The notes below the pieces were generated by a model, which was given only the letters and a program-made list of their open reading frames with translations, made no database searches and was not told where the DNA came from. DNA of 34,142 bases, from the NCBI GenBank assembly GCA_943354915.1, contig CALRDO010000003.1:1-34142 (forward strand), written 5' to 3'. Positions 8,996 to 13,960 of this stretch are shown one piece after another; the first letter of the stretch is position 1; each line of letters opens with the position of its first letter. The position numbers were made by a program, and so were the translations under genes. The DNA is from Patescibacteria group bacterium UBA4664. Its GTDB lineage: Bacteria; Patescibacteriota; Saccharimonadia; CAILAD01; BJGX01.

Positions 8996-9041
8996 AAACA
9001 CCTTTGAGAGATTTTTAATCAAAATAAAAAGGTGTTTTTTT
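8996..9041 (+). terminator. Rho-independent terminator between rplU and the convergent hydrolase gene
   Basis: AAACACCTTT (8996-9005) pairs with AAAGGTGTTT (9028-9037), followed by T-tract. Confidence 0.85.
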
Positions 9042-10443
9042 ATTTACAATTATTACTAACTGGCTGCGATGACAAGATATTTTGCATCCAACTTATAGTG
9101 TCCTTAAAGCTAGCGTTCATTACCTGATAATGGTCTACTTTGCCAGACTGGTTGTAGTCTTGAATGGCGTATGGGCTTGTATCGTACTTTTTAAAAGTTA
9201 CCGCGTTGCCGCTAACGCACATCCTTTCTAGGCCGTGCTGGCTCTGCGAAAGCAATATAACATCATCATGGATACCATGGTTAATAAGTTTCGGCCTGTC
9301 AGTTTTTTTGCTTCCAACAATATTCTTTGCCAAATCTGCAGAGAGCCCAGCATAGGCAGCATCAGCCGCAATATTTAACTTTTTGGCTACCTTGATAAAT
9401 TCAGGAGTATAAACTTGGTTTGATCGATTATCTCCTATGTTATTGGGCCAAGTTTTATTAAACATATCTAGGCAGATAGCCTGCGAAGCTGTCTGATAGG
9501 TTTTAGCCCATTTGGGCAACAGAATCTTATCTACAGGGTAGGCGGCCTTATACCAATCGCCATAACTAGCTACAATTAAAGGACCAAACCAGTTAATATT
9601 AGCTCCGTTAGTGGCATCATCTAGCGTCTCCTCAACGCTAGTGACTGGCCCAAACCCAATCGCTGCTTTTAAGTTGATTTCAGGAGCATAATCATCTTTA
9701 ATTTGATCGGCCCAATATGCTCCGTGCCCGCCCTCGGAATACCCAGCGCTAAAAACTTTAGTATCATCAATTTGATCTTTTGAGAGAGCAAGATTTTTAA
9801 GCGAACGGATACTATCCAAAACTGCCTTGCCAGCTAGTTCCCCCACCATATAATGATGAAGTCTATTGGCGTCACGCATACCCTCGTAATCAATAGCTAC
9901 CACGACGTAGCCCTGACTGGCATAAGCCATCAGCAAGCTATCATAATTACCCCAATCCTTTTTTGCAGGGTCCTCAAGCGAAGCACTACAGCTATCGCCA
10001 ACTCCGGTAGTACCTGGCGCGAACGCTAGCACTGGTTTTTTATTAGTACCTGCCGGGACATAAACCCTGGCATAAATTGGCACATTATCGCTTTGGCCAT
10101 CTGAACTGTTAAAGACAAATGTCTGCTTAGTAACTTCGGTAGTAATAGGGCTATCAAAGCGCTTATTGGTTTGCACCACTAACCGCTGCACGGCATCTGC
10201 AGAGAATACTCCGACAGGTTCTTCGCTAATTATTTTACCAGTTTTAATGGCACGGTTGACATGCTCTTTAATGCTCACAACATTAGGAACCTGCTTAGGC
10301 TTTGATTTAGGTAAAACATAGTAAAAATACCCAGCCAGCAATGCAACAAAAATAAGCTCAACAATTAAGATTACCCATAAGCCACGCGCTACCAGTCTTC
10401 GGTTCTTTTCTAGTCTTGAAATTGGTTTACGGGTTTTTCTCAT
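9040..10443 (-). CDS. Secreted/membrane-anchored alpha/beta hydrolase (secretory lipase-like)
   Basis: N-terminal TM anchor; GYVVVAIDYEGM, FSAGYSEGGHGAYWA nucleophile elbow (GxSxGG). ATG at 10443 preferred over TTG 10464. Confidence 0.82.
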   Translation of the reverse strand: MRKTRKPISRLEKNRRLVARGLWVILIVELIFVALLAGYFYYVLPKSKPKQVPNVVSIKEHVNRAIKTGKIISEEPVGVFSADAVQRLVVQTNKRFDSPITTEVTKQTFVFNSSDGQSDNVPIYARVYVPAGTNKKPVLAFAPGTTGVGDSCSASLEDPAKKDWGNYDSLLMAYASQGYVVVAIDYEGMRDANRLHHYMVGELAGKAVLDSIRSLKNLALSKDQIDDTKVFSAGYSEGGHGAYWADQIKDDYAPEINLKAAIGFGPVTSVEETLDDATNGANINWFGPLIVASYGDWYKAAYPVDKILLPKWAKTYQTASQAICLDMFNKTWPNNIGDNRSNQVYTPEFIKVAKKLNIAADAAYAGLSADLAKNIVGSKKTDRPKLINHGIHDDVILLSQSQHGLERMCVSGNAVTFKKYDTSPYAIQDYNQSGKVDHYQVMNASFKDTISWMQNILSSQPVSNNCK

Positions 10444-10475
10444 ACAACTATCCAAATCTACCAAGCGGTATTAAC

Positions 10476-11393
10476 TTAAGCGCTCTCTAGGTACCTCTCT
10501 ACCTCTAGTGCAGCCCTACAGCCATCGCCTGCTGCTGTAACCGCCTGGCGATAAAGTGGGTCAGCAACATCACCTGCCGCAAAAACTCCATCAATAGCAG
10601 TTTTAACATTATCCTTAACTACTAAGTACCCAGTTTTATCCATCTCTAGGGACCCCTTAAATAAAGCAGTAGCCGGTGTGTGCCCAACTGCTACAAAGAA
10701 CCCTTGGCAGGCTATTTTTTTAGTTTTCGCAGTTTTAATATTTTTGATCTTCACGCCCTCAACCTTATCTTTTCCTAAAACCTCTAGAACTTCCGAGTCC
10801 CATATCACTTCAATCTTATTATTCTTGAGCACTCTTTCTTGCATTATCTTGCTAGCCCTAAATTTATCTCGCCGATGAATGAGCGTAACTTTACTAGCTA
10901 ATTTGGCCAGCGTTAGCGACTCTTCCATGGCGCTATCGCCGCCGCCAACCACAACAACCTCTTGGTCCTTAAAAAAGAATCCATCACAGGTGGCACAAGA
11001 CGAAACTCCATTGCCCATTAGTCGCTGTTCGCTATCGAGCCCTAACCAATTAGCGCTAGCGCCAGTAGCTATAATGATAGTTTTAGTCAAATACTCCTGT
11101 TTGCCAATTAACAACTTCTTGGGCTGACCCCCTAGTTCTACTTTGGTCGCAAATTCTTGGATAATTTCTACCCCAAACCTTTTAGCCTGGGCTTTCATTG
11201 CGTCCATCAGCTCGGGCCCCAATATGCCATCCTTAAGCCCTGGAAAATTTTCGACTTCGGTAGTTAATAAGAGCTGTCCGCCAGGCGTTGTACCTGCTAC
11301 CATTAGTACTTTAATGTTTGCTCTGGCAGCATAAATAGCTGCCGTGTAGCCAGCCGGGCCGGCTCCAATAATTATTAAGTCGTATGCTTTCAT
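10476..11393 (-). CDS. trxB: Thioredoxin reductase
   Basis: IIGAGPAGYTAAIYAAR, SCATCDGFFFKDQEVVVVGGGDSAMEE (CxxC), GVFAAGDVADPLYRQAVTAAGDGCRAA. ATG 11393 (track start is TTG 11396). Confidence 0.96.
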   Translation of the reverse strand: MKAYDLIIIGAGPAGYTAAIYAARANIKVLMVAGTTPGGQLLLTTEVENFPGLKDGILGPELMDAMKAQAKRFGVEIIQEFATKVELGGQPKKLLIGKQEYLTKTIIIATGASANWLGLDSEQRLMGNGVSSCATCDGFFFKDQEVVVVGGGDSAMEESLTLAKLASKVTLIHRRDKFRASKIMQERVLKNNKIEVIWDSEVLEVLGKDKVEGVKIKNIKTAKTKKIACQGFFVAVGHTPATALFKGSLEMDKTGYLVVKDNVKTAIDGVFAAGDVADPLYRQAVTAAGDGCRAALEVERYLESA

Positions 11394-11400
11394 CAATTAA

Positions 11401-12627
11401 TTATAACAGATTAAATAAGTCTATTGTTTGTGTCGCTAGTAATGTCATGCTAAATAACAACCCTAAGATTGGCACTACTAGTGGTACGCTAAAAATTGGC
11501 CGTTGCAGCCGGCGGTGTTTTACCTTCCAGTATATTAAAGATAAGTTAACTATCGCAAAAACAATTAAAATTAAATAGCTAGTAGTAACTGCCAGAGTGG
11601 TAAGATCAAAAAATATTGCTAGTAGCGAGGAAGCTATGACCATTACTATAATAGCTAGCGAAGGAGTTTGGCGACGCTCGTGGACCATAGCTAAGCGTTT
11701 GTGTACCCAGCCAACTTCGGCCATGCCGTATAGTAATCTCGAGCCACTAATTAGGTGAGCTAGCACCCCTCCGGCCGTGGCGGTTAAGGCGATTATAGTA
11801 ATAATCCATGCCGGGGAGTTAGTAATTTTATTAAAAACCAAACTAAGTGGTGCCGTAGATGCCTGTAACTGCTCCGCAGGGATAGTGCTAGTAGCGACAA
11901 TTGCTATTAATATATACAAAACCGTTGCAATCGTCATGGCTGAGACTATAGCCATTGGCATTATAAAGCGAGGGTTTTTTGTTTCCTCCGATAAATGGAC
12001 CATATCCTCAATGCCAATATAGGCATAAAAAGCTAGGAATGCTCCGGAGAGTAGTCCAGTCATACCAACGGCCCGAATATCTATCATCGCGCTGGGGTTA
12101 GCAAATGCTACGCCCAAAGTCTCCTTACCAAACCAAATGATGGCTATCAAGCCAGCAATTTCTATTAATGTATGTACGGCCGCAAATATTAGGGATTCCT
12201 TCACCCCCCATGAGGCAACGAAACCAAGAACTAGTATTATTAATGTTGAGCCAATAGGCATTATTATCTCCGTTGAACTAAAAACATAACCACCAAAGGC
12301 TCTGGCTAGGGTGGCGGCCGATACTATCGTAGCAACCATCATTAATAACCCAACTGCAATCGAGACTGACTTTCTTTTGAAGGCCCGATGGACATAAGCA
12401 GATACTCCCTCACTATAAGGGTGAAGGCTAGATAATTCAGCAAAAGAGAGGGCGCTAAATGAAGCTATCAACATAGATAGTAAAAAAGCCAAGGGGGTAG
12501 CCATGCCAGCCTCACCTGCGACCTTGCCAATCAGGGCATATATCCCGGCCCCGACAATATTGCCTAGGCCATAAATAGTTACCAAAAATATACCGAGTGT
12601 ACGCTTGAGCTTGTGCCGGCGAGCCAT
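11401..12627 (-). CDS. APC superfamily amino-acid permease
   Basis: LGIFLVTIYGLGNIVGAGIYALIGKVAGEAG N-terminal APC signature; about 12 hydrophobic segments; AFYAYIGIEDMVHLSEETKNP. Confidence 0.92.
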   Translation of the reverse strand: MARRHKLKRTLGIFLVTIYGLGNIVGAGIYALIGKVAGEAGMATPLAFLLSMLIASFSALSFAELSSLHPYSEGVSAYVHRAFKRKSVSIAVGLLMMVATIVSAATLARAFGGYVFSSTEIIMPIGSTLIILVLGFVASWGVKESLIFAAVHTLIEIAGLIAIIWFGKETLGVAFANPSAMIDIRAVGMTGLLSGAFLAFYAYIGIEDMVHLSEETKNPRFIMPMAIVSAMTIATVLYILIAIVATSTIPAEQLQASTAPLSLVFNKITNSPAWIITIIALTATAGGVLAHLISGSRLLYGMAEVGWVHKRLAMVHERRQTPSLAIIVMVIASSLLAIFFDLTTLAVTTSYLILIVFAIVNLSLIYWKVKHRRLQRPIFSVPLVVPILGLLFSMTLLATQTIDLFNLL

Positions 12628-12629
12628 TT

Positions 12630-13409
12630 TTAGGGCCTAAGAGTACCGGCGAAGACCTGCCAAGCTAAAGCCGTCTTGGCAACCAGGCTCAGAATAATAT
12701 AAACGCGTTCGCCGTAGAGGTAGTTCTTCCAGGGTCCCCACTTTTTGTACTGCAAGAACATATTGATAGCAAAACAATTGAAAAACAAAGAGATAGTAAT
12801 AAAGATCCAATAAACAAATGCTGGTATTTTGGCGTCCGAGGTCGAGCTAGAAGCGCTGGCCCAAAAATAGATTGCAATACATATCCAGGGCACGATACCT
12901 GCAATACAACCCACAATGTAGCTAACCCATTTTGTTTTTTCGGTAGTTTGGTTGTGGATCTCCATTATTAGACCGCAGAGGTTCATGACCATCACCAGTG
13001 CAAATAAACAAATTAAGCTGACTAAGTCGTAAATGCCCGTTAGTAATGCAATTGCCACAATCATGGTGCTAGCCGAAAAGCTGTATTCTATCCAGCGAGC
13101 TCGGTTCATACCAAGCTTGAGGTCTTTTTTGTAACGGCGGTAGTAGATAGTAGAAATTATCAGGTGGGCTAGCATGCACATGACCAAGAACGCTAGAATC
13201 AACCAAACCAAGGGTAGCTGATATATAGACTTGGTGGCGGAGTCGAGGCTTTCGGTGCTGGTATTAAATGTCAGGTAGCTGACACTAATCGGAAACTTAA
13301 CCTTAGCATTGGCAATCATAAACATCACCGCCACTTGAATTGCAAAAAATACAAACATAAATATATTGAACTTTCTAAGACCCTCAACCGTAATCTTTTT
13401 CATAGCCAT
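12630..13409 (-). CDS. Heliorhodopsin
   Basis: TM7 YLYGERVYIILSLVAKTALAWQVFAGTLRP with Schiff-base Lys; TM3 RWIEYSFSASTMIV; VGCIAGIVPWICIAIYFWA; IPAFVYWIFITISLFFNCFAINMFLQYKKWGPW; closely resembles heliorhodopsin 48C12 as recalled. ATG 13409 with SD AGAAAGGTGAG. Confidence 0.95.
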   Translation of the reverse strand: MAMKKITVEGLRKFNIFMFVFFAIQVAVMFMIANAKVKFPISVSYLTFNTSTESLDSATKSIYQLPLVWLILAFLVMCMLAHLIISTIYYRRYKKDLKLGMNRARWIEYSFSASTMIVAIALLTGIYDLVSLICLFALVMVMNLCGLIMEIHNQTTEKTKWVSYIVGCIAGIVPWICIAIYFWASASSSTSDAKIPAFVYWIFITISLFFNCFAINMFLQYKKWGPWKNYLYGERVYIILSLVAKTALAWQVFAGTLRP

Positions 13410-13462
13410 TTGACATCTCACCTTTCTGTAAAATTAATTAATTCTTAAAGCTTATGCTTATA

Positions 13463-13491
13463 ATTATAAATTAAAAATTAGGCCGAAGCAA
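13463..13491 (-). promoter_or_regulatory. Candidate heliorhodopsin operon promoter (TTGCTT-N17-TATAAT)
   Basis: Minus-strand TTGCTT (13491-13486), 17-nt spacer, TATAAT (13468-13463), overlapping the 3' end of the upstream CDS. Confidence 0.5.
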
Positions 13492-13960
13492 TCTTAATGT
13501 AGTTGGTATTGTCGCAAATATAGTAGGCCAGTATTTTAAAACTATCAAGCTTGGGAAGCTTAAATTTTTTAGCAATTGCTACAAGGTCCTCAAAGCTCGT
13601 GCCACTGGTATCTACTAGCGTAAAAACTAATACGGTCGGCACGCTATAGTGCCTAAGGTGCGTAAGGAGTTTGTTCGCAAAAAATATTTCGATTTGGTTT
13701 AAGCGTTCGTCGTGTGGTAAGTTGGCAGGCAAAGATAGCCGGCACAGCTGGGGGTTATAAACACACTGCACCGAGGCTTGGTCGTCTGAGATTATAACGC
13801 TGTCAAAACCCAACAACCCTCCATCCTTAGCGTAGATCATATCTGGGTTCTCGGCATACGACTGAAAAACCCAGCCATGATACTCTGGGCATACTTGCAG
13901 AAACTTCTCAACGAGCTCCCTCTCGCGATGTTTTTTTATTTTGTCATATGGTAAATTCAT
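13478..13960 (-). CDS. Hypothetical protein (160 aa)
   Basis: Intact ORF in the rodA-nuclease gene string; no recognised motif. Confidence 0.65.
   Translation of the reverse strand: MNLPYDKIKKHRERELVEKFLQVCPEYHGWVFQSYAENPDMIYAKDGGLLGFDSVIISDDQASVQCVYNPQLCRLSLPANLPHDERLNQIEIFFANKLLTHLRHYSVPTVLVFTLVDTSGTSFEDLVAIAKKFKLPKLDSFKILAYYICDNTNYIKIASA

Follow-up and report, generated by a model that had tools for sequence, protein, structure and literature searches.

A canonical heliorhodopsin in a small Saccharimonadia genome, with phenylalanine at the position of the TM1 histidine

The window analysed here, a 34,142-nucleotide stretch of contig CALRDO010000003.1 from Patescibacteria group bacterium UBA4664 (Saccharimonadia), carries a gene for a genuine heliorhodopsin (HeR), which is canonical, functional-looking and ordinary for its lineage, and in which the TM1 histidine H23 (numbering of HeR 48C12) is replaced by phenylalanine. 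The identity of the protein, its fold, its key residues, the selection acting on it and its distribution are established by the analysis. The gene and its translation signal are as follows:

12630..13409, minus strand: heliorhodopsin (HeR), 259 aa, with K245, E108, H82 (equivalent to H80), F22 (replacing H23) and C78 (replacing S76)
13417..13427, minus strand: ribosome-binding site AGAAAGGTGAG, just 5' of the HeR ATG at 13409

The ORF is translated into 259 aa with zero internal stops, and the ribosome-binding site just before ATG 13409 makes this codon the preferred start over an in-frame GTG at 13421. The Pfam heliorhodopsin profile PF18761 matches over its full length (1-242/242) with 302 bits (E=2.7e-90; cut-off 26.7), which bears out the earlier note on this DNA, where the protein had been named a heliorhodopsin of a Patescibacteria-like genome and this profile search had been proposed as a check. 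The NCBIfam HeR equivalog NF038020 matches with 317.8 bits (cut-off 100), and since this curated model names HeR directly, routine NCBI annotation would do so as well, contrary to the expectation in the same note that the gene would easily be called a hypothetical membrane protein. Assignment to the type-1 rhodopsins, which are marked by PF01036 and a DxxxK motif in TM7, is not indicated, as PF18761 is the sole match. The best solved relative is TaHeR (PDB 6is6; E=3e-77, 53% identity). Comparison with three congeneric copies gives a dN of ~0.025 and a dS of 0.45-0.97 (dN/dS ~0.03-0.06), and this low dN relative to dS indicates strong purifying selection and a maintained HeR gene.

An AlphaFold2 model of the window HeR, built from 36 class homologues, has a mean pLDDT of 92 and seven transmembrane helices, with a beta hairpin of two strands (38-49 and 54-66) between TM1 and TM2. 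The ten best PDB matches of this model are all heliorhodopsins, with type-1 rhodopsins far behind, and the structural overlay suggested earlier agrees with the profile result, giving a TM score of 0.90 (rmsd 1.7 Å) to 6is6 and of 0.86 to 48C12. By the positive-inside count over the loops (K+R 15 vs 5), a cytoplasmic N-terminus is the favoured prediction.

Alignment to the SLVAK of TaHeR, together with the fold match, places the predicted Schiff-base lysine at K245 in TM7, within an SxxxK motif (S241-LVA-K245), and this is the residue that the earlier note had picked when counting from ATG 13409. The TM3 counterion context RWIEYS proposed there is likewise found, with E108 as its glutamate and S112 in the same helix, and the segment GCIAGIVPW is present from residue 167. 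The S111/S237 equivalents, E149, E230 and W246 are also kept, and A119 occupies position three of the ESL motif, a residue shared by 73 of the 108 aligned class rows. Across the 14 residues of the proton and hydrogen-bond network of 48C12, the window HeR differs at two, H23 (F22) and S76 (C78); in the TM1/TM2 histidine pair, which is typical of heliorhodopsins and not defining, H80 is thus retained as H82 and H23 is lost to F22. TaHeR from Thermoplasmatales archaeon SG8-52-1 (PDB 6is6/7u55) shares the fold, SLVAK, the E108 counterion and H82 with the window HeR, but its TM1 His23 is replaced by Phe in the window HeR and its TM2 Ser near the counterion by Cys. Similarly, 48C12 (6su3, 6uh3) shares the fold and the hydrogen-bond network save two positions, but is 42% identical and has its H23 and S76 replaced in the window protein.

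In this class, a family match alone does not prove that retinal is bound, since Pfam scores class proteins without the lysine and the counterion well over the cut-off. Such retinal-less HeR-like proteins of Saccharimonadia (109-206 bits) are found at L084:5882-6703 (genome G074), L228 (G156), L230 (G042), L231 (G275), L233 (G208) and L235 (G379), where Ser, Ala, Val or Glu stands in place of the Schiff-base lysine and the Glu counterion has been lost as well; unlike them, the window HeR keeps both residues. A more divergent HeR-like group (L232 in G184, L234 in G152, L240 in G031, L246 in G253, and L238, L239 and L247) has Asp at the counterion, mostly with Thr at the Ser position next to it, either Lys or Arg in TM7 and, in most members, Pro for the TM2 His, although the alignment is uncertain at such a distance, and it might be a distinct rhodopsin clade. 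In addition, the HeR at L085:5622-6365 (G230) shows a 9-residue alignment gap in TM3 that removes the Arg, the Glu counterion and the Ser and leaves the TM7 lysine. The class also contains a second HeR paralogue clade (support 100/100), in which 5/8 members (L056:5405-5728, L057, L058, L059 and L064:5685-6014) have a small gene resembling a K+ channel (Ion_trans_2, TTVGYGD filter) upstream of HeR, on the opposite strand and within one to three genes. The paralogues L058 (G011) and L064 (G184) are near-identical and have similar flanks in different families, which may reflect lateral transfer or misbinning of short contigs.

The host genome is small (537 kb in 37 contigs, 93% complete), and the nearest named HeRs, at 95% identity, come from MAGs titled Patescibacteria group bacterium, Candidatus Saccharibacteria bacterium and UBA4664, two of which carry the label Baikal-deep. 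HeR occurs in 11/13 genomes of the host family, in 102/393 Saccharimonadia genomes (~26%) and in 61/381 genomes of a Patescibacteria phylum sample, 58 of them over the cut-off (15%). The earlier note had left it open whether HeRs are common in the lineage; by these counts they are not rare, and their occurrence was already known, as Chiriac et al. (2022; PMC9166423) report 80 HeRs in Saccharimonadia and tie them to oxidative stress. Those HeRs share the host class, the protein family and the SLVAK motif with the window HeR, but a clade with phenylalanine at position 23 goes unmentioned in the main text of that paper as excerpted.

The loss of the TM1 histidine, a feature absent from the earlier note, is specific to the family clade. 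Phenylalanine occupies position 23 in 10/10 full-length HeRs of this clade, and the ten sequences group together in the tree with support 100/100, which leaves a recent HeR transfer from outside the family unsupported. Among aligned rows outside the clade, position 23 is His in 92, and of the rows that include TM1 two others deviate, one with Gln and one with Tyr, the latter in a protein that also has no lysine. A second set of 40 strong HeRs, half of them from the class and half from other parts of the phylum (20 each), has His in 39 and Leu in one. The S76C change occurs in the window genus and one other genus of the family, plus two unrelated rows. No prior description of a clade-specific TM1 histidine loss was found in a search of open-access papers.

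In 48C12, the mutation H23F slows the photocycle with M still formed, and H80-H23-Q26-W246 may relay a signal outward (PMC9726877); His-23 also changes orientation in low-pH structures (PMC9385722). Another study found that the pigment does not depend on H23 (PMC6951262), and the effect of Phe at this position may therefore be mild. H23F and S76C in the window HeR are predicted to slow the photocycle and to break the extracellular branch of signalling. The same two changes could mark a degenerating or light-independent relic that has kept the fold without light signalling, for example in deep-lake populations, and both the related class proteins entirely without a Schiff-base lysine and the two close relatives from MAGs titled Baikal-deep would fit such a relic; however, the lysine, the counterion and the retinal-pocket serines are retained and purifying selection is strong at the dN/dS given above, which makes decay highly improbable. 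It is also very unlikely that the protein transports protons in a light-driven or light-gated manner, as the viral V2HeR3 does, instead of acting as a sensor. Proton transport is known for some heliorhodopsins, the transport hallmark of V2HeR3 being Glu191 (PMC9448325), and the adjoining APC permease could use a proton gradient, but at the position of BR W182, where the ion-transporting V2HeR3 has Trp, the window HeR has Phe (F210), as in non-transporting HeRs.

No blh gene lies in the window, in line with the earlier note, which had seen no retinal biosynthesis gene there; none was detected in the host genome and nothing exceeded the cut-off across 386 genomes, although the positive control, Halovivax, was also without a match and no control genome scored, so that the absence of blh is only likely. 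The host genome has no type-1 rhodopsin (PF01036) either, while the same search exceeded the cut-off in 7/386 class genomes. Saccharibacteria carrying type-1 rhodopsins are reported to have no blh, and their rhodopsins were shown to take up external retinal rapidly (Jaffe et al.; PMC9296517). With neither a type-1 rhodopsin nor a detectable blh in the host genome, the retinal of the window HeR is probably scavenged from neighbours or a host.

Four further genes on the same strand flank HeR:

13478..13960, minus strand: family-specific protein, 160 aa, no Pfam match, 68 bp before the HeR ATG
11401..12627, minus strand: APC-superfamily amino acid permease, 408 aa (Pfam PF13520, 3.4e-37), 2 bp after HeR
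10476..11396, minus strand: thioredoxin-disulfide reductase TrxB (TIGR01292, 408 bits; cut-off 343), likely start ATG 11393
9040..10464, minus strand: secretory-lipase-like alpha/beta hydrolase (PF03583, 1.3e-20), last of the co-directional run

The co-directional run is tightly spaced, with 2 bp between HeR and the permease, 4 bp between the permease and the reductase and 11 bp between the reductase and the hydrolase, and it is operon-like in the window and in genome G010; a promoter and terminator scan gave results at chance level. HeR adjoins the permease in G000, G010, G012 and G008, which represent only two genera. An inverted helicase gene lies between permease and reductase in G008 and G012 and directly after HeR in G011 and G004, the reductase directly follows HeR in G003, and HeR lies elsewhere in the genome in G006 and G007. 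A conserved operon of the four genes in its strong form is rejected because the helicase gene interrupts it in congeners, and since the linkage is only partly conserved, the output partner stays a candidate, the APC permease being the best local one. Among the HeR partners published so far are glutamine synthetase, photolyase and an ABC transporter (PMC9529153, PMC9769723 and PMC11109279). The gene of OcHeR, like that of the window HeR, adjoins a membrane transporter gene, but its partner OmrDE is an ABC transporter with measured binding, whereas the APC permease is a candidate by adjacency and is not among the ten frequent HeR neighbour groups of PMC11109279.

An alternative, possible though unlikely, is that the light sensor acts on the nearby thioredoxin reductase and not on the permease, with redox defence as its output. 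The reductase lies within three genes of HeR in five genera (g1, g2, g3, g4 and g7), without consistent co-transcription, redox genes are enriched around HeR (PMC8612252), and MsrA is near HeR in ten other loci. On the other hand, the inverted helicase gene stands between HeR and the reductase in G004, G008, G011 and G012, and gene order is in any case largely shared among close genomes, which makes the proximity weak evidence.

The 160-aa upstream gene is rejected as a HeR partner, as six genomes carry it apart from HeR, and it is probably an unrelated neighbour; where its context is visible, it comes in most cases after the rodA/SNase genes belonging to the ileS block. The protein has invariant ENPD and GFDS-like motifs, and its AlphaFold2 model (pLDDT 78; helix-strand-strand-strand-helix-strand) has no significant match in the PDB, the insignificant ones including nucleases such as Hjc. 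Another uncharacterised family without a Pfam match (c47; 166-182 aa; L110:6445-6951, L111 and L132) immediately precedes HeR in three genomes and adjoins the 160-aa gene in G009. In G046, which belongs to the same order, HeR is directly preceded, at 55 bp and on the same strand, by genes for a response-regulator-like protein and a histidine kinase (L118:5243-6939).

Taken as a whole, the window gene quite likely encodes a functional retinal-binding HeR that senses light instead of pumping ions, with a mainly cytoplasmic signal and an output to a neighbouring membrane protein or to oxidative-stress physiology. The inferred parts of this picture (photochemistry, uptake of retinal, role as a sensor, slower cycle and partner) would combine as follows. 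The protein would sit in inverted topology, with its N-terminus inside, and be loaded with all-trans-retinal from neighbours or a host; light would isomerise the K245-bound retinal, and the proton of the Schiff base would pass to E108 and then to H82. Phe at the H23 position would interrupt the proposed outward relay H80-H23-Q26-W246, which should slow the cycle and leave the signal to travel mainly through the intact cytoplasmic network N15-Y93-E234-R105-E150, and the output would probably modulate a neighbouring membrane protein, for which the APC permease is the best local candidate, or oxidative-stress physiology. A wider reading, tentative and rather doubtful in its full extent, is that the natural H23F HeRs of this whole family-level clade of freshwater Saccharimonadia (with S76C in two genera) have a broken extracellular relay and a signal that is cytoplasmic only, with a slowed photocycle perhaps fit for dim water, and that they may gate the adjacent APC permease.

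What heliorhodopsins do remains a matter of debate. H23 has been proposed to act in the relay, and a natural clade with conserved H23F makes the relay model testable with unmutated proteins. The putative light sensor is kept in a genome of ~0.54 Mb without detectable retinal synthesis, which again suggests hosts or neighbours as the source of retinal.
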